A DNA stretch of 8,187 nucleotides, taken from Flammeovirgaceae bacterium UBA4659 (GTDB lineage Bacteria; Bacteroidota; Bacteroidia; Cytophagales; Cyclobacteriaceae). Below the pieces are notes generated by a model. It was not told the origin of the DNA and ran no database searches. It worked only from the letters and a program-made list of their open reading frames with translations. Numbering within the stretch: position 1 is the stretch's first letter; every line of letters starts with the position of its first letter. This document shows positions 1,543 through 8,187 of the stretch, in pieces. The stretch covers positions 8,820 through 17,006 of the forward strand of contig DHLV01000036.1 in assembly GCA_002405445.1 (NCBI GenBank), in the 5' to 3' direction. The position numbers and the translations under genes are program-made.

Positions 1543-1965
1543 TTACTGTACCACTGTGACTTCCCCTTTAATCGTGAGCAGTGTAATACCGCCCTCTACG
1601 TTGCTGGTGACAGTGATGGTTTTGTTGAATGGACCCTGTGTTGCTGCATTGAAGGTTGCCTTCACAAAACCAGTTCCACCAGGAGGCACAGGTGTTTTTG
1701 TCCAATCAGGGGCCGTGCAGCCGCACGATGGTTGTGCGTTGGCGATAATAAAAGGCACCTTTCCGGTGTTTCTGAATGTGAATTGATGCTCGGCAGGCAC
1801 ACCCTGCTTTACCTTTCCGAAATCGTGCGCGGTGGCCTCCCACGTAACGGTGGCGTACTCAACTTTCACTTCGTTTTTGTTCAATGGAATAACCCCGCTA
1901 TTCTCTTGTGCAAAGCCAATTCCTGCGATCAAAGCAAAAATGGCAGTCAATGCTAATTTTTTCAT
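1543..1965 (-). CDS. Small secreted DUF1573-domain protein
   Basis: A 140-residue exported protein. Residues 1-20 (MKKLALTAIFALIAGIGFAQ) form a clear Sec signal peptide, with cleavage likely around GFA/Q. The mature part carries the DUF1573 pattern: TWEATAHDFGKVKQG (41-55), HQFTFRNTGKVPFII (60-74), the hallmark SCGCTAPDW (80-88; cysteines 81 and 83), PVPPGGTGFVKATF (92-105) and TITVTSNVEGG (116-126). This is an immunoglobulin-like (ASH/MSP-type) beta-sandwich family that is very common in Bacteroidota; its biochemical role is unknown. The frame extends upstream to a TTG at 1974, but the ATG at 1965 puts the lysines at the very N-terminus, as signal peptides require, so it is preferred. The gene is divergent from the sensor-kinase operon and convergent with the heptose kinase, so it is probably monocistronic. 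Confidence 0.9.
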   Translation of the reverse strand: MKKLALTAIFALIAGIGFAQENSGVIPLNKNEVKVEYATVTWEATAHDFGKVKQGVPAEHQFTFRNTGKVPFIIANAQPSCGCTAPDWTKTPVPPGGTGFVKATFNAATQGPFNKTITVTSNVEGGITLLTIKGEVTVVQ

Positions 1966-2010
1966 GAGATTCAATTTTAATGTAAACTTAAGATGTTGTT
2001 ATTAACTCTA

Positions 2011-2126: not shown

Positions 2127-3425
2127 GTGAACAGGTTGGCACTACGAATCGTTATCGCCCTGGCTGTAGCCAGCATTTTGGGCATCACCATTACCCAAAT
2201 ATACTGGGTGCGCAAAGCCTTTGACCTCAAAGAAAACCAGTTTAACAGCGATGTGAACCTGGCGCTTGAGAATGTAGCCAACCAGATCTTTGCTTTCAAT
2301 AAAATGGTGGCGCCCGCGGGTAAGATTGTTGATCAGGTCTCTACCAATTATTTCGTGGTACTTTTGAACGGGCCTATCGACTCTAATCTGTTGGGGTATC
2401 TGATCAAGAACGAATTTGACAAACGAAAAATCACTACCGACTACCAATATGGTGTGTACGATTGTGCCGATCAGTGCATGGTAGGCGGCAACTACTATGC
2501 CCCTGTGAAGGGGCCGGCCGGCCGGGCTACCACTGTGCCGGGTTTGCTCAACCAAACTTCGCCTCATGACCTGCCCACTACGCAAACAGACGGCTACTAT
2601 TTTGGCGTGCGTTTCTTTAATATCGAGGCAAACCTGGTAAGCCAAATGGGCATTTGGATCTTTTCTACCAGTGTATTGTTGATAGTAATTTTCTTTTTCG
2701 CTTATGCGCTGTTTGTCATTTTAAAGCAACGCAGGTTATCTGAAGTACAGAAGGATTTTATCAATAATATGACGCACGAGTTCAAAACTCCGCTATCCAC
2801 TATCGCAATTTCATCGGGTGTATTAAAAGATCCATCTATCATTCAAACGCCAGAGCGGCTGCTCAACTATGCCACTATTATCGAAAGTGAAACGCACCGG
2901 TTGAAGCAGCAGGTAGAGCGTGTTTTGCAGATGGCACGCTGGGAGAAGAACAGCCTCAATTTGAAACGCGAGCCACTCTCGCTGCACCAATTGGTCACCG
3001 AGTCGGTGCGAAATAACTTATTTGCCGTAGAAAAAATGGATGGCTCTATTCAAACGCAGTTGAACGCCACCTACGATGTGGTGCAGATGGATAAGCTGCA
3101 TATCTCCAATGTGCTTTACAACCTTGTTGACAATGCTTTGAAGTACTGCCGGCAGCGTCCGGCAATTGTAATTTCAACTGATTCAAACGAACGGGCGATA
3201 ACGCTGGCGATAGCCGACAATGGCATCGGTATCAGCGAAGAGAACCAGAAAAAGATTTTTCACCGTTTTTACCGCGTGCCTACAGGCAACGTGCACGATG
3301 TGAAAGGCTTTGGCCTCGGCCTCAATTACGTGAAGCTGGTAGTGGAAGCCCATGGCGGAAAAATTAGTGTGCAGAGCAACATTGGCAACGGAAGCACCTT
3401 CATAATCGTATTACCACTGGCATGA
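2127..3425 (+). CDS. Membrane sensor histidine kinase (RprX-like, HisKA/HATPase_c)
   Basis: A 432-residue inner-membrane sensor kinase. Residues 6-28 form the first membrane segment and about 175-199 the second; between them lies a roughly 145-residue periplasmic sensor region of no recognised family, holding C113 and C117. The cytoplasmic part has a HisKA helix with phospho-acceptor H217 in NNMTHEFKTPLS. The ATP-binding domain follows, with N-box YNLVDNALK (331-339), G1 box DNGIGI (364-369), F-box KKIFHRFYR (375-383) and G2 box GFGLGL (394-399). All boxes appear intact, so it should autophosphorylate and pass phosphate to the regulator encoded next to it. No HAMP domain is evident between the second membrane segment and HisKA. 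The start is a GTG at 2127: the frame is open back to a stop at 2067-2069, but no ATG occurs and the GTG gives a short N-terminus before the first membrane helix. The signal sensed is unknown. Confidence 0.94.
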   Translation: MNRLALRIVIALAVASILGITITQIYWVRKAFDLKENQFNSDVNLALENVANQIFAFNKMVAPAGKIVDQVSTNYFVVLLNGPIDSNLLGYLIKNEFDKRKITTDYQYGVYDCADQCMVGGNYYAPVKGPAGRATTVPGLLNQTSPHDLPTTQTDGYYFGVRFFNIEANLVSQMGIWIFSTSVLLIVIFFFAYALFVILKQRRLSEVQKDFINNMTHEFKTPLSTIAISSGVLKDPSIIQTPERLLNYATIIESETHRLKQQVERVLQMARWEKNSLNLKREPLSLHQLVTESVRNNLFAVEKMDGSIQTQLNATYDVVQMDKLHISNVLYNLVDNALKYCRQRPAIVISTDSNERAITLAIADNGIGISEENQKKIFHRFYRVPTGNVHDVKGFGLGLNYVKLVVEAHGGKISVQSNIGNGSTFIIVLPLA

Positions 3426-4105
3426 GCGCAAAAATACTTTTGGTAGAAGACGACCACAGTCTGGGGTTTGTGATGAAAGACAACCTGGTACACCATGGTT
3501 ACACTGTAGACTGGGCCGAAAATGGCGAGCTCGGTCTCCACAAATTTGCAGCTGGTGATTTTGATTTGTGCATACTGGACGTGATGCTGCCCAAGAAAGA
3601 CGGATTTCGTTTGGCAACAGAAATTCGCAGCAAAAATCAGCAGGTGCCCATTTTATTTGTAACGGCCAAGGCAATGCTCGAAGACAAAATGATCGGATTT
3701 AAAGCAGGCGGTGACGATTATATTGTGAAGCCATTTAGCATGGATGAGCTGCTGGCCCGCATTGAAGTTTTTTTAAGGCGCACGCAGCCAGCTGTAGCAG
3801 CTCCTGAGCATTTGATTGGTGCGTTTCGGTTTGACTTTAATAACCTGCAGCTGGTGCACCCGGGGGGCGATAAAACACTCACGCAAAAGGAAGCTAATGT
3901 ACTCAAACTGCTTTGTGCCAACCGCCACCGCGTGTTAAAGCGTGAGGAAATCCTGAACGAAGTATGGGGTGATGACGATTATTTTATGGGCCGCAGTTTG
4001 GACGTGTTCATCTCCCGGTTACGTAAATATTTGAAAGACGACCCCTCAGTTGAGATCGTGAATTATCATGGTGTCGGGTTTAGAATTGAGGTGAGTAGGG
4101 CGTAA
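3422..4105 (+). CDS. OmpR/PhoB-family response regulator (RprY-like)
   Basis: A 227-residue cytoplasmic DNA-binding regulator. The receiver domain (residues 3-120) has acidic pocket residues D10 and D11, phospho-acceptor D53 in CILDVMLPKKDG, switch threonine T81 and conserved K103 in YIVKPF, all intact. The C-terminal winged-helix domain (about 130-225) shows LTQKEANVLKLL, the KREEILNEVWG loop region, recognition helix RSLDVFISRLRKYL and the wing hairpin VNYHGVGFRIE. The ATG overlaps the kinase stop codon (ATGA, 3422-3425), which points to translational coupling and a dedicated kinase-regulator pair. Target genes are not known; the phased repeats upstream of the operon make autoregulation plausible. 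The operon is closed by a hairpin beginning at its stop codon. Confidence 0.95.
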   Translation: MSAKILLVEDDHSLGFVMKDNLVHHGYTVDWAENGELGLHKFAAGDFDLCILDVMLPKKDGFRLATEIRSKNQQVPILFVTAKAMLEDKMIGFKAGGDDYIVKPFSMDELLARIEVFLRRTQPAVAAPEHLIGAFRFDFNNLQLVHPGGDKTLTQKEANVLKLLCANRHRVLKREEILNEVWGDDDYFMGRSLDVFISRLRKYLKDDPSVEIVNYHGVGFRIEVSRA

Positions 4106-4196: not shown

Positions 4197-6728
4197 TCAA
4201 TCAGGCTCATTTACAAACGACTCCGCGTAGTCCATTGCGGTTAAAACGGTATCGTAAAGTCCTACGTCTTCGCCTTTATGTTTGACAATTCCCGTGTAAG
4301 TCAAAGAAGAATCTTCGTAGCGTTTAAACTTGTAAACAGCATCGTTCATCAGTGCACTATTGAAAACGCCAAGACTCACCAATAATTCAAAGTCCTTTAC
4401 ATTTAAACCAGTCACTTTTTTAAATAGTCCAGGTTCTAATTGTGTAATTACATCTTTTAGACTTCTTTCCCGATAATCTGTCAGGTACATGAATATGGGA
4501 ACACGAGTTGCGAACTTGATTAGTTTTTCCTGAATCTCCTTTCTCTTGCTCTTGAATTCTTTTTCTTGCTCTGATAATTCCTGCTTTTCCTTCTTCGTCA
4601 GTTCGCGTTCGTTGGCTTCTTTCTTTGTTTTGTTAACTGCTTCCGATTTATTGATGATGGTCTCAATGTCCTGATTCAAATTTCTAAATCCTTCAATGCT
4701 CATGAGTGCTTCCATTGCTTTCTCATTGTTCATGAGTCGTTGAAGCGTGTTGTTGTCAACATTCACCAACAAAGCACTTTCCCAGCGTCTTGCCAACAAA
4801 GTTGCGGTTGTGCCGCTCATGGCCATGTCCAAAATTCCGGCAGCATCAATTTGTTTCATTGAACTGCCGTCATAAGCCAGAACTGGCAAGAAGTGAATGA
4901 ACTCTTCAACTTTCTTTTCTGGATTTGTATCGTTTACATTCAGTCGGCAACTATAGTCGGCTATCTGTCTCAAAGCCCTGTCGGGAGCAAAATCAAAAAC
5001 ATAGCATTCTTGTTTAATGATTTCTTCTTTGTTGGGTGATTTGCTGTCTGGATTTTTTATTGTCCACGGTGTTTGCACTCTGAACGCTGCTTGAAAATAC
5101 GTTTCGGGACTCGATGAATTTCTTAACATAAAAATTCCCGTCCAAGGTTTTACTGAAACGCCTGTGGTCAGCTTGCCGCAAGAGAGTGTAATCGTTTTTG
5201 TTTTCAATGGATTGTCCATTGCTTCCTGAACGGGTGGCAATGCCTCAACACCAATTCCTGCACTTGTGCCGGCTGCTACAATAATTTTATAATCCTGATA
5301 AAACTTATTTTGCTTTTGCTCCAATAAATTGCGCATGGCATAACAGGCGGCTACCGAAGGCAGAAACCAAAACGTATGTGACAATACATTTAACAAAGGC
5401 GCATGAGAAAATGGAAGTGGCGGTTTCTTCGCGCCCAACTTTAAATTATCAACCGTTGTTTCGGCAAACGAACCTCTTATTAAGTCTAACCATTTCTGAA
5501 CTTCATCTTGGTATTTGAATTTGGCTTTCTTGCCTTCGCCTTCAGCCGAAAAGAAAACATTCAAATCAAACTCGTTGAATTCTCCCTTCATGGCTATTTC
5601 CCGAATGGAATCAGGCAGCTGATAGGTCATCATCACCATTCTTGGAAGCGAAGCATACGGATTAGGTTCTCCCCAGCCTTCGCGTTCGCTGCGGCTGGCA
5701 GGTTTCCAGTTTTCCTTTGCCCGCTGCTCGTCTGAGTATGTCCAGTTGTAAATTTGTTCTTCTATAAATTCGCCTGAAGCTATTGCCCGGAATGGTGTGC
5801 CTGATAGATACAGATAATGATTGGTGGTAATGGGCATGTTTTCTTCATCGAAATAGTCGAGCCCTTCGCCTTCGGCAAATTTTAGTTCTTTGGCGTCCTC
5901 ACCTTCAAACAAGTCTTTCGCACTTTCGCGCCAGGCGCCAAAGTGGTATTCATCCAATACCACACAATCCCAATCGGTGGCATGTACCCATTCGTTTTTT
6001 GGTTTGATGCCGCCCGCTTCGTTTCTACCGAGGTAATCTTGAAACGATCCAAAACACACAATCGGCTGTTTTTTATTGGCTTTGGTAACCGGCATGCCCC
6101 CTTTAGAAATAAACTGCCACCCTTTAAAATCAATGTGCGACTTCAAATCTTCCTCCCACGCACTTTGCACAGCCGGTTTAAAGGTGAGCACCAAAATCTT
6201 TTTCCAACCCATTCGTTTGGCCAACTGATAGGTGGCAAACGTTTTACCAAAACGCATCTTGGCATTCCACAGAAAATGAGGCGTCTTTTTTGGGTCTTCT
6301 TTCTTCGCGTCTTTAAAATATTGAATCGTTTTAACTACCGCCTCTTCCTGCTCCGGCCGCATGGCGAAATCCAACGAGCGGTTGTCTTCATTGCTCACAC
6401 CGCTTTTGATTTCAAGCACAGCAGCCTTTACCTCTTTTACCGTACAGGCAAACCATTCACCTTCCGGGTTTTTAATTTTCTTACTGCGCAATAGCCTGTG
6501 AACATCCGCATCGGTAAAAGCCGAGCCATCATTTTTCATGGCCGACTCTTCCAATACAATTTTATACTTGATGGCTGCCGTTTTGGTTTGCTCTGCAATG
6601 CGCTTTTCGGATGAGCGACTGGTGTAGCCTACTTTAAGCAAGCCCGCATGAGTTGAAACACCTATTAACTCATAAGCATAGATTGTGGGATTGGCTTCTG
6701 GCCGAGGCGGAAAGAATTTCTTATTCAT
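4197..6728 (-). CDS. GIY-YIG-like nuclease fused to SF2 helicase, probable restriction subunit
   Basis: An 843-residue protein. Residues 15-95 form a GIY-YIG-like domain of the T5orf172 type: IYAYEL (16-21) and KVGYTSR (32-38) correspond to the two named strands, R43 to the helix arginine, and H77 plus GEWF (90-93) to the later conserved positions. An SF2 helicase/translocase follows: motif I KMRFGKT (157-163), motif II DEYH (259-262), motif III SGTP (309-312), a TTGVSV motif V region (521-526) and motif VI-like QAAFRVQ (546-552). Residues about 693-737 are very rich in K and E and predict a coiled coil. The C-terminal 100 residues match no domain I know. The first ATG (6728) overlaps the methylase stop by 8 bases (ATGAATAA) and is preferred to a TTG at 6755. 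Inferred role: ATP-driven translocation and cleavage of unmodified DNA, with specificity from the methylase. Confidence 0.85.
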   Translation of the reverse strand: MNKKFFPPRPEANPTIYAYELIGVSTHAGLLKVGYTSRSSEKRIAEQTKTAAIKYKIVLEESAMKNDGSAFTDADVHRLLRSKKIKNPEGEWFACTVKEVKAAVLEIKSGVSNEDNRSLDFAMRPEQEEAVVKTIQYFKDAKKEDPKKTPHFLWNAKMRFGKTFATYQLAKRMGWKKILVLTFKPAVQSAWEEDLKSHIDFKGWQFISKGGMPVTKANKKQPIVCFGSFQDYLGRNEAGGIKPKNEWVHATDWDCVVLDEYHFGAWRESAKDLFEGEDAKELKFAEGEGLDYFDEENMPITTNHYLYLSGTPFRAIASGEFIEEQIYNWTYSDEQRAKENWKPASRSEREGWGEPNPYASLPRMVMMTYQLPDSIREIAMKGEFNEFDLNVFFSAEGEGKKAKFKYQDEVQKWLDLIRGSFAETTVDNLKLGAKKPPLPFSHAPLLNVLSHTFWFLPSVAACYAMRNLLEQKQNKFYQDYKIIVAAGTSAGIGVEALPPVQEAMDNPLKTKTITLSCGKLTTGVSVKPWTGIFMLRNSSSPETYFQAAFRVQTPWTIKNPDSKSPNKEEIIKQECYVFDFAPDRALRQIADYSCRLNVNDTNPEKKVEEFIHFLPVLAYDGSSMKQIDAAGILDMAMSGTTATLLARRWESALLVNVDNNTLQRLMNNEKAMEALMSIEGFRNLNQDIETIINKSEAVNKTKKEANERELTKKEKQELSEQEKEFKSKRKEIQEKLIKFATRVPIFMYLTDYRERSLKDVITQLEPGLFKKVTGLNVKDFELLVSLGVFNSALMNDAVYKFKRYEDSSLTYTGIVKHKGEDVGLYDTVLTAMDYAESFVNEPD

Positions 6729-8187
6729 CAATTTCTTCGTTTTCTGTTGAATCAATTGACTTTATTCTTGAATCAATAAATTTCCATTCCTCTTTTGTTA
6801 TTCCCCATCTCTTACAAAGAATTTCATCGGTATATGTTCCTTCGTATTTACCAATATCAGGTATGAATGCAAAATTCGATCTTGTCACATCTTGAGAAAC
6901 TACAGTTTGCAATAACAGAAATCGAAATGTCTTTGTGAATAAGTATGATTTGAAAGAAATGACTTCTTTTAATATTTTTGAAGAAAATGCTACAATCCAT
7001 GATTCCGTGCATGCCTCTCCTGGTTTGGCGATTCTAATATTACGATCATAATAGAATCCAACAGGCTTTGAAAAATCAGTTTGTCCAGCAATAGGCGCTC
7101 TTGGTATTAATAATTTATACTTATCTAAAAGATTATTATTATCAGAAACATCACTCTTACTAGCATACTTTAATCCTATCCGCTGAATAAACCAACAAGG
7201 TATTCCTGAATTCTTAGGTGCATAGTTAGTTGGCAGACCAAACGGTTTTCTTGAAGAGACAAGGTCACTCAGATTCCTTCCTCCATTTTCCTTTTTAGCA
7301 ACGACCTTTCTAATTATTGGGATAGCTTTGCTATGGCGAATGAAGATTGGAAATTCATTAAGTACCCTGTTTGATTTTTCTTCTTGTCCGTTAATGAAGT
7401 TAGTTACTTCACAAAGTCCGGGGTTATCTCTATCCCATAAGAAATAACAAATACCACCAGCAACATCTACTCCGGGAAATACTTCATTAGAGTTTTCGAA
7501 ATCCACTAGTTTTCTTATCCTCTTATCATTGAGCATTTCAGTGCGGAATTCATCTAATCCTTTACCTCCGGCAAACCATCGTGCAGGTATTATCATTGTC
7601 AGATAGCGTGGATTTAGTTTTTTTGCTTGCTGAATAAATTGGTGATAAATGGGACTTGCGCTTCTTCCATGTCCTGCATCACTTAATTGGTACGGAGGAT
7701 TACCAACGACTACATCAAATTTCATATTCTTAAAAATGCTTTTAGTTATATCGGTGTGTATAAATGGATAAGCGTATGTCTCTAAACCTTCTTCACGGTC
7801 GTAAACTTCCTGACTTGCTCCGCAATATGAACAGCTCCCATTCTCCCACGTATGCCTTAGCTTTTTATAAATTATATTTCCTTCTGCGTTATCAAACGCG
7901 TCACAAACAGAATACTTTCCGTTTGCAAATTTTGAACAATACAAAGTCCTGCGAGATAGCAGCGAAGTGAGTTCGGTAATGGCAATACCAAAAACCTGCT
8001 TGGTGTAAATGTGGTTGGCTCTCTTTTGTGGGTCGGGTATTTCTTTTTCAAGTCCCTTCATCAACCGCTTGGTAATCTCTCGCAGAAACACACCCGATTT
8101 TGAAACGGGGTCTAAGAAGGTGGCATGCTTGTCTTTCCAAATGCCGGCCGGCAGTAAATCTAACATTTGGTTGGCCAAGGCGGGTGG
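6721..8187 (-). CDS. Eco57I-type N6-adenine DNA methyltransferase, 5' end cut by right window edge
   Basis: The last 488 codons of an adenine methylase; the frame runs unbroken into the edge (PPALANQMLDLLP), and the TTG at 8178 is internal. In numbering from that TTG codon, the AdoMet-binding motif I is LDPVSKSGVFL (22-32), a variant of the usual DPxCGSG, and the catalytic motif IV is GNPPY (159-163), diagnostic of N6-adenine methylases. C81, C92 and CSYC (116-119) between them may bind zinc. Family-typical stretches follow: MIIPARWFAGGKGLDEFR (195-212) and VFPGVDVAGGICYFLWDRD (233-251). The rest (about 270-485) is probably the target-recognition region and is notably A/T-rich. The product would methylate adenine in a specific site to protect host DNA. 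Only a few N-terminal residues, perhaps more, are missing. Upstream genes and promoter lie outside the window. Confidence 0.9.
   Translation of the reverse strand, partial: PPALANQMLDLLPAGIWKDKHATFLDPVSKSGVFLREITKRLMKGLEKEIPDPQKRANHIYTKQVFGIAITELTSLLSRRTLYCSKFANGKYSVCDAFDNAEGNIIYKKLRHTWENGSCSYCGASQEVYDREEGLETYAYPFIHTDITKSIFKNMKFDVVVGNPPYQLSDAGHGRSASPIYHQFIQQAKKLNPRYLTMIIPARWFAGGKGLDEFRTEMLNDKRIRKLVDFENSNEVFPGVDVAGGICYFLWDRDNPGLCEVTNFINGQEEKSNRVLNEFPIFIRHSKAIPIIRKVVAKKENGGRNLSDLVSSRKPFGLPTNYAPKNSGIPCWFIQRIGLKYASKSDVSDNNNLLDKYKLLIPRAPIAGQTDFSKPVGFYYDRNIRIAKPGEACTESWIVAFSSKILKEVISFKSYLFTKTFRFLLLQTVVSQDVTRSNFAFIPDIGKYEGTYTDEILCKRWGITKEEWKFIDSRIKSIDSTENEEIDE

Follow-up and report, generated by a model that had tools for sequence, protein, structure and literature searches.

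A Probable DrdVI-Type Restriction-Modification Set with Two Methylase-Like Proteins and a Helicase Fusion in Flammeovirgaceae Bacterium UBA4659

Introduction

The closest described relative of the restriction-modification system treated here is DrdVI, encoded on plasmid pDrdVI of Deinococcus wulumuqiensis NEB 479. M1-2.DrdVI places N6-methyladenine (6mA, also written m6A) at GCAGCC and is listed as Type IIG, and its methylase genes have been expressed in Escherichia coli ER2796 (Fomenkov et al. 2019, PMC6430315). A second member, M1-M2.MaeIV of Methanococcus aeolicus, is reported to place m6A on one strand at GCACY (PMC10113651). Here, we are describing a locus of this kind in Flammeovirgaceae bacterium UBA4659, part of which lies in the window, i.e., the whole analysed stretch of 8,187 nucleotides (contig DHLV01000036.1, positions 8820-17006 of 21,703), which is one scaffold piece between N runs at 8616-8819 and 17007-17254. 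The window encodes an Eco57I-type adenine methylase (M2) and a fusion of a GIY-YIG domain with a superfamily 2 (SF2) helicase (HEL); the third gene, M1, encodes a methylase-like protein of 218 aa and lies past the window edge on the same strand (locus L003, 3250-3906).

We hold with good confidence that the window contains two genes of a three-gene DrdVI-type set, in which M1-M2 would methylate one strand of an asymmetric site and HEL is predicted to cut unmethylated DNA. Since the set matches the named DrdVI, with MaeIV as a second member, the kind is already known; the window system is an ordinary, widespread member of it. The kind is thinly studied: a methylation specificity was found in print for two members only, DrdVI and MaeIV, and the literature searched (REBASE itself and most subscription papers being outside its scope) yielded no mechanism.

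Gene Organisation and Relationship to DrdVI

A plasmid search with HEL matched pDrdVI, where a DNA methyltransferase, an Eco57I methylase and a DEAD/DEAH helicase follow one another in the order M1-M2-HEL. Identity to the pDrdVI proteins amounts to 41.8% for M1, 45.1% for M2 and 57.5% for HEL (201, 517 and 849 aligned columns, respectively). From the plasmid name and the table in PMC6430315, we read the three annotated genes as M1.DrdVI, M2.DrdVI and the restriction enzyme DrdVI. Gene number, order, orientation and the split of motifs between M1 and M2 are as at the window locus, which, judged by gene order and by homology of all three proteins, can be assigned to the DrdVI type. Unlike the window locus, DrdVI has no gene listed between M1 and M2, hence no DUF1016 gene there, and GCAGCC is DrdVI's own site that may not be that of the window M2 (45% identity, variable recognition region). 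MaeIV, an M1-M2 pair with one-strand m6A, is likened to the system by its published description.

All genes of the set, arranged as M1-(DUF1016)-M2-HEL, lie on one strand. Between the response-regulator gene (window 3422-4105) and a formyltransferase (purN-like) gene, the large minus-strand open reading frames (ORFs) are HEL, M2, the DUF1016/YhcG gene and M1, the last two and purN being located past the N gap. The 248-base N run (contig 17007-17254) takes up the first ~24 residues of M2 and also the C-terminus of the DUF1016 gene (L003 2265-3266, contig 17264-18265), which carries Pfam's YhcG PDDEXK nuclease domain (YhcG_C, E 9e-60). The M2 stop and the HEL start overlap by 8 nt, the bases in common being ATGAATAA. 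HEL comprises 852 aa if begun at an upstream TTG (ORF 4197-6755, minus strand; TTG at 6755), while several close relatives have in common the start at ATG 6728. For both HEL and M2, 7,999/7,999 scored candidates are relatives at E <= 0.001 (at least 7,999 each); both genes are therefore real, and a chance origin of their reading frames is excluded.

An earlier note on this DNA, made from the window's letters, had recognised the restriction-modification set and its overlapping genes correctly, and had taken it for a compact two-gene layout. This layout did not hold: the note had itself named a further gene of a typed system just past the right edge as the finding that would speak against it, and M1, the third core gene, is present there in a set matching DrdVI. 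The remark that related genes bear generic database names is borne out; the accompanying view that they lack a well-defined type has to give way to the named relative DrdVI (GCAGCC, 6mA, IIG; PMC6430315).

Conservation of the Three-Gene Set

A HEL profile search of genome contigs returned at least 587 confirmed relatives; the analysis was restricted to the best 80 loci. Gene order was counted in the 57 loci where the sequence upstream of HEL exceeds 3 kb, leaving out the 23 with 3 kb or less; ORFs were begun at the first ATG, GTG or TTG, so that starts are approximate. M1, M2 and HEL follow each other on one strand in 54/57 loci, with an M1-M2 spacing of at most 92 bp in 46/54 and an M2-HEL spacing of at most 140 bp in 32/54. 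Rarity of adjacency, the objection that the earlier note had raised against itself, thus fails.

According to their record titles, the best 80 loci are from many bacterial phyla and, in one case, from an archaeal metagenome contig. Within the phylum, a sample of 296 genomes has HEL in 26, M2 in 27 and both in 25; the HEL-only genome (G278) and the M2-only genomes (G028, G075) carry fragments. All 20 sampled genomes with separate HEL and M2 have an M1 match (on a different contig from HEL in G009, G171 and G272), the remaining five of the 25 having fused HEL-M2. Further M1-profile matches comprise ORFs of 510 and 502 aa at other places in G034 and G168, together with fragments in G177 and G184, both without a HEL or M2 match. 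The system is spread over many phyla and is also present on plasmid pDrdVI and in a gut-phage record. The latter, phage NatCom_35866 (PV036449.1; L173 3688-8919), carries the full M1-M2-HEL with the motifs EPACGDGNFL in M1 and DPACKTGVFL plus NPPY in M2; a phage or prophage can therefore carry the system.

In seven loci (L053-L057, L142 and, in part, L059), HEL and M2 are joined in one ORF. An M1-like gene lies upstream on the same strand in six of these, directly adjacent in five and 1.8 kb away in L059. A single-sequence phmmer search with the window M1 missed these divergent genes, which were found by profile search. None of the six has an NPPY-like motif, and the fused HEL-M2 genes retain acid-x-x-x-Lys-x-Gly.

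Accessory genes are found inside the operon at L064, L072, L083, L087, L104, L111, L114 and L135. By Pfam, ten inserted genes that were checked comprise DUF1016, Bro-N (two), RhuM, PDDEXK_3, ORF6N, DarT-macro, AAA (two) and HARE-HTH.

Split Motifs in M1 and M2

Motif counts cover 64 M2, 61 M1 and 76 HEL ORFs that exceeded length limits, together with those of the window locus itself. M1 retains motif X and the cofactor motif I, the latter reading EPACGxGxFL in 62/62 rows. NPPY is absent from M1 in every locus (0/61), its place being taken by an EW pair, mostly FSEW; W162 is invariant (58/58) and mean pairwise identity is 0.58. Against PDB sequences, the matches of M1 were confined to DNA methylases (type I, type II and others) and lay at motifs X/I.

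M2 has NPPY in 65/65 rows, and its motif I reads DPxx-Lys-(S/T)-G, again in 65/65; among the database relatives listed, NPPY and the motif I lysine are both present in 120/120. As a control, the best 30 Eco57I-family loci of a longer match list from 148 genomes were inspected: the eight belonging to the M2 family have the lysine, while the 22 others have glycine in 19/19 scored (lysine 0/19), three giving no motif match. Judged from this pattern, the invariant M2 lysine seems to be a product of selection and not of drift.

The fold of M2 is that of an entire methylase, including a probable recognition domain, and the whole protein gave a fold match to CamA-DNA complexes. Mean pairwise identity is 0.63 over residues 1-290, 0.34 over 291-410 and 0.46 over 411-488; the variability is thus concentrated towards the C-terminus, where a target-recognition domain would be expected, and the variable stretch is probably such a domain.

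A side observation concerns an M2 insert between motifs I and IV (window 7756-7854, residues about 112-144) with a conserved H..C-x-x-C-G..H pattern, here CSYCGAS, which is possibly a zinc-binding site and is missing in L049.

The Helicase Fusion

In 852-aa numbering, HEL matches the Pfam families T5orf172 (E 7e-9, 32-116) and MUG113 (E 8e-8, 40-114), which we take to belong to the GIY-YIG clan, followed by ResIII (E 7e-6, 130-283). Within the GIY-YIG domain, Tyr26 is conserved in 76/77 rows and Lys41, Gly43, Arg52 and Glu100 in 77/77, as are the GKT (Walker A) and DEYH boxes of the motor; mean pairwise identity is 0.74. The predicted HEL model gave an SF2 fold match over model residues 117-623, a range that leaves most of the GIY-YIG part (model residues about 11-110) outside. 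Since the model is weak, the match supports a general SF2 motor only, and since many SF2 motors score alike, no subfamily is claimed. No PD-(D/E)XK family was detected in HEL at E <= 1 in Pfam, a hidden one being conceivable in the weakly modelled C-terminal part. Sequence and profile searches of HEL and M2 against PDB sequences gave no useful relative; M2 matches to herpesvirus glycoprotein H were weak (E above 0.1) and were discarded.

Proposed Mechanism and Alternative Explanations

The earlier note had placed modification and recognition in one protein, and cleavage and translocation in the other. Recognition within the methylase is likely, and M1 has to be added as a further core gene. 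In the mechanism that we propose, the variable C-terminal region of M2 would serve in site recognition and its NPPY motif in methylation, with M1, having an intact cofactor motif and no catalytic motif, acting as a putative obligate partner in an M1-M2 complex. HEL would join this complex at an unmethylated site, hydrolyse ATP and move along the DNA, which its GIY-YIG domain would presumably cut. The opposite strand of GCAGCC is without adenine; with one strand marked, newly replicated sites without a mark would arise, so that a pair of sites in opposite orientation, or a collision, should be required for cutting, by analogy with Type ISP and Type III. Enzymes of these types also modify a single strand, and they escape cutting their own DNA after replication because they require sites paired in inverted orientation (PMC5737866). 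We infer such site-pair logic for the window system because HEL combines an SF2 motor with a nuclease-like domain and marking is probably on one strand.

The motif split poses the sharp question of which subunit holds the cofactor and how two reciprocally incomplete methylases share one reaction; neither this split, nor the M2 lysine, nor a test of the motor or nuclease was found in the literature searched. A tentative answer, to which we give rather low credence, is that M1 and M2 are incomplete by design: M1 might bind or hand over S-adenosylmethionine, or its cofactor state might license M2, so that cofactor and catalysis would reside on separate polypeptides coupled to the GIY-YIG motor. 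If true, this would be a cofactor-sensing, three-part restriction machine.

Several points weigh against the proposed three-part system. DrdVI is listed as IIG and not as a motor enzyme; cleavage, ATPase activity or translocation by DrdVI or MaeIV was not found in the literature searched, nor was a requirement for each of M1 and M2. The GIY-YIG domain of HEL reads Lys-Val-Gly where Tyr-Ile-Gly is expected, and the predicted HEL structure is weak (mean predicted local distance difference test score 69, predicted template modelling score 0.58). Three of the 57 loci are without M1 and an intact M2, L070 and L093 retaining C-terminal M2 fragments and L080 having neither protein. The fused gene of L054 has no M1-profile match directly upstream, where a 604-aa methylase with NPPW is situated, and a weak M1-like match (37 bits) lies about 2.8 kb downstream. 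In the window's own contig, M1 is linked to M2 only across 248 Ns, and a DUF1016 gene between M1 and M2 was seen in none of the other DUF1016-bearing loci; its position here could reflect either a variant arrangement or an error in scaffolding.

One alternative holds that HEL does not cut: its T5orf172 domain would bind or position DNA, while another nuclease, such as DUF1016/YhcG, cuts, or HEL merely blocks. The lysine in place of the YIG tyrosine would suit this, as would the nuclease-bearing DUF1016 gene, which is present here and was found in 8/80 loci. It was, however, not found in 72/80 (by one query sequence, some flanks being short), and the GIY-YIG domain has Arg52 and Glu100 in every row (77/77). 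We regard a non-cutting HEL as improbable.

Equally doubtful is a split Type ISP enzyme, i.e., a LlaGI/LlaBIII lineage in three genes with its Mrr nuclease exchanged for GIY-YIG. Type ISP enzymes (LlaGI, LlaBIII) are reported to be single chains with an Mrr-family nuclease (PMC4666363). They resemble the window system in an SF2 motor, an m6A methylase, a recognition domain and asymmetric sites, and differ from it by its three chains, its GIY-YIG-clan domain and the extra M1; no Mrr family was found in Pfam. The PDB matches of HEL and M2, by sequence or profile, include neither LlaGI nor LlaBIII, scores as high or higher are reached by numerous other SF2 motors and m6A methylases, and M1 is without a Type ISP counterpart in the literature searched.

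It is very unlikely that M1 stands outside the enzyme as a regulator binding S-adenosylmethionine or as a decaying leftover methylase. The absence of NPPY from all 61 loci would agree with this, but its motif I is intact in 62/62 rows, its position is kept in 54/57 loci, and an inactive, fragmented Bibersteinia relative resembles M1 N-terminally and M2 C-terminally. An accidental neighbour is rejected on the same count of loci and by its place upstream of 6/7 fused forms. A new, untyped two-gene system, in which M2 alone modifies and HEL alone restricts, would account for the 8-nt overlap and the complete fold and recognition domain of M2, but is scarcely credible and was rejected, given M1 upstream in 54/57 loci and in 6/7 fused ones and the match to the named DrdVI.

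Relation to Established Types

Type IIG enzymes combine restriction and modification in one polypeptide, and Type III systems have a Res protein with a C-terminal PD-(D/E)XK nuclease. As the earlier note had seen, the window locus conforms to neither. M2 and HEL are separate genes here and one polypeptide in the fused relatives alone, and the nuclease-like domain of HEL is the N-terminal T5orf172/MUG113 one. Likewise in agreement with the note, none of the large ORFs that the flanking genes enclose resembles the HsdS gene of Type I; one hidden in the N gap is discounted because 248 bases are too short. PacII M1M2S, a non-canonical Type I enzyme, has two different M subunits in one methylase, which make m6A and m4C (N4-methylcytosine) and work with an S subunit (PMC9613975); the window system has a catalytic motif in M2 only and no S.

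In a PADLOC scan covering the window HEL and M2, both align with model PDLC03626 'REase_MTase_IIG' (1359 aa) and are scored as components of a IIG enzyme; M1 scores only weakly, as a methylase (best E 4e-10). Three-gene sets may therefore be recorded as separate parts.

Features and Neighbouring Genes

Table 1. Coordinates of HEL, M2 and their domains in the window.
Feature	Position	Strand	Basis
HEL (DrdVI-like), GIY-YIG/SF2 helicase fusion	4197..6728	(-)	843 aa from ATG 6728; close relatives start there
GIY-YIG-clan domain (T5orf172/MUG113) of HEL	6408..6686	(-)	Pfam match and conserved residues
ResIII/SF2 ATPase lobe of HEL	5907..6368	(-)	GKT (Walker A) and DEYH box; Pfam match
M2, Eco57I-type adenine methylase	6721..8187	(-)	Pfam E 5e-39; N-terminus cut by window edge and N gap
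M2 motif I, FLDPVSKSGVFLR	8080..8118	(-)	Family-invariant Lys at Gly position
M2 motif IV, NPPY (catalytic loop)	7690..7701	(-)	Present in 65/65 rows
M2 variable region, probable target-recognition domain	6868..7317	(-)	About residues 291-440; low pairwise identity

In the left part of the window, genes named by eye comprise a sugar-kinase-like gene (514-1497), a DUF1573-like secreted protein (1543-1974, minus strand), a sensor kinase (2127-3425) and the response regulator (3422-4105). Elsewhere, the same genome encodes a second Eco57I-family methylase (G000:C267:1336-2097, L157; open frame of 1121 aa) with a normal glycine in motif I.

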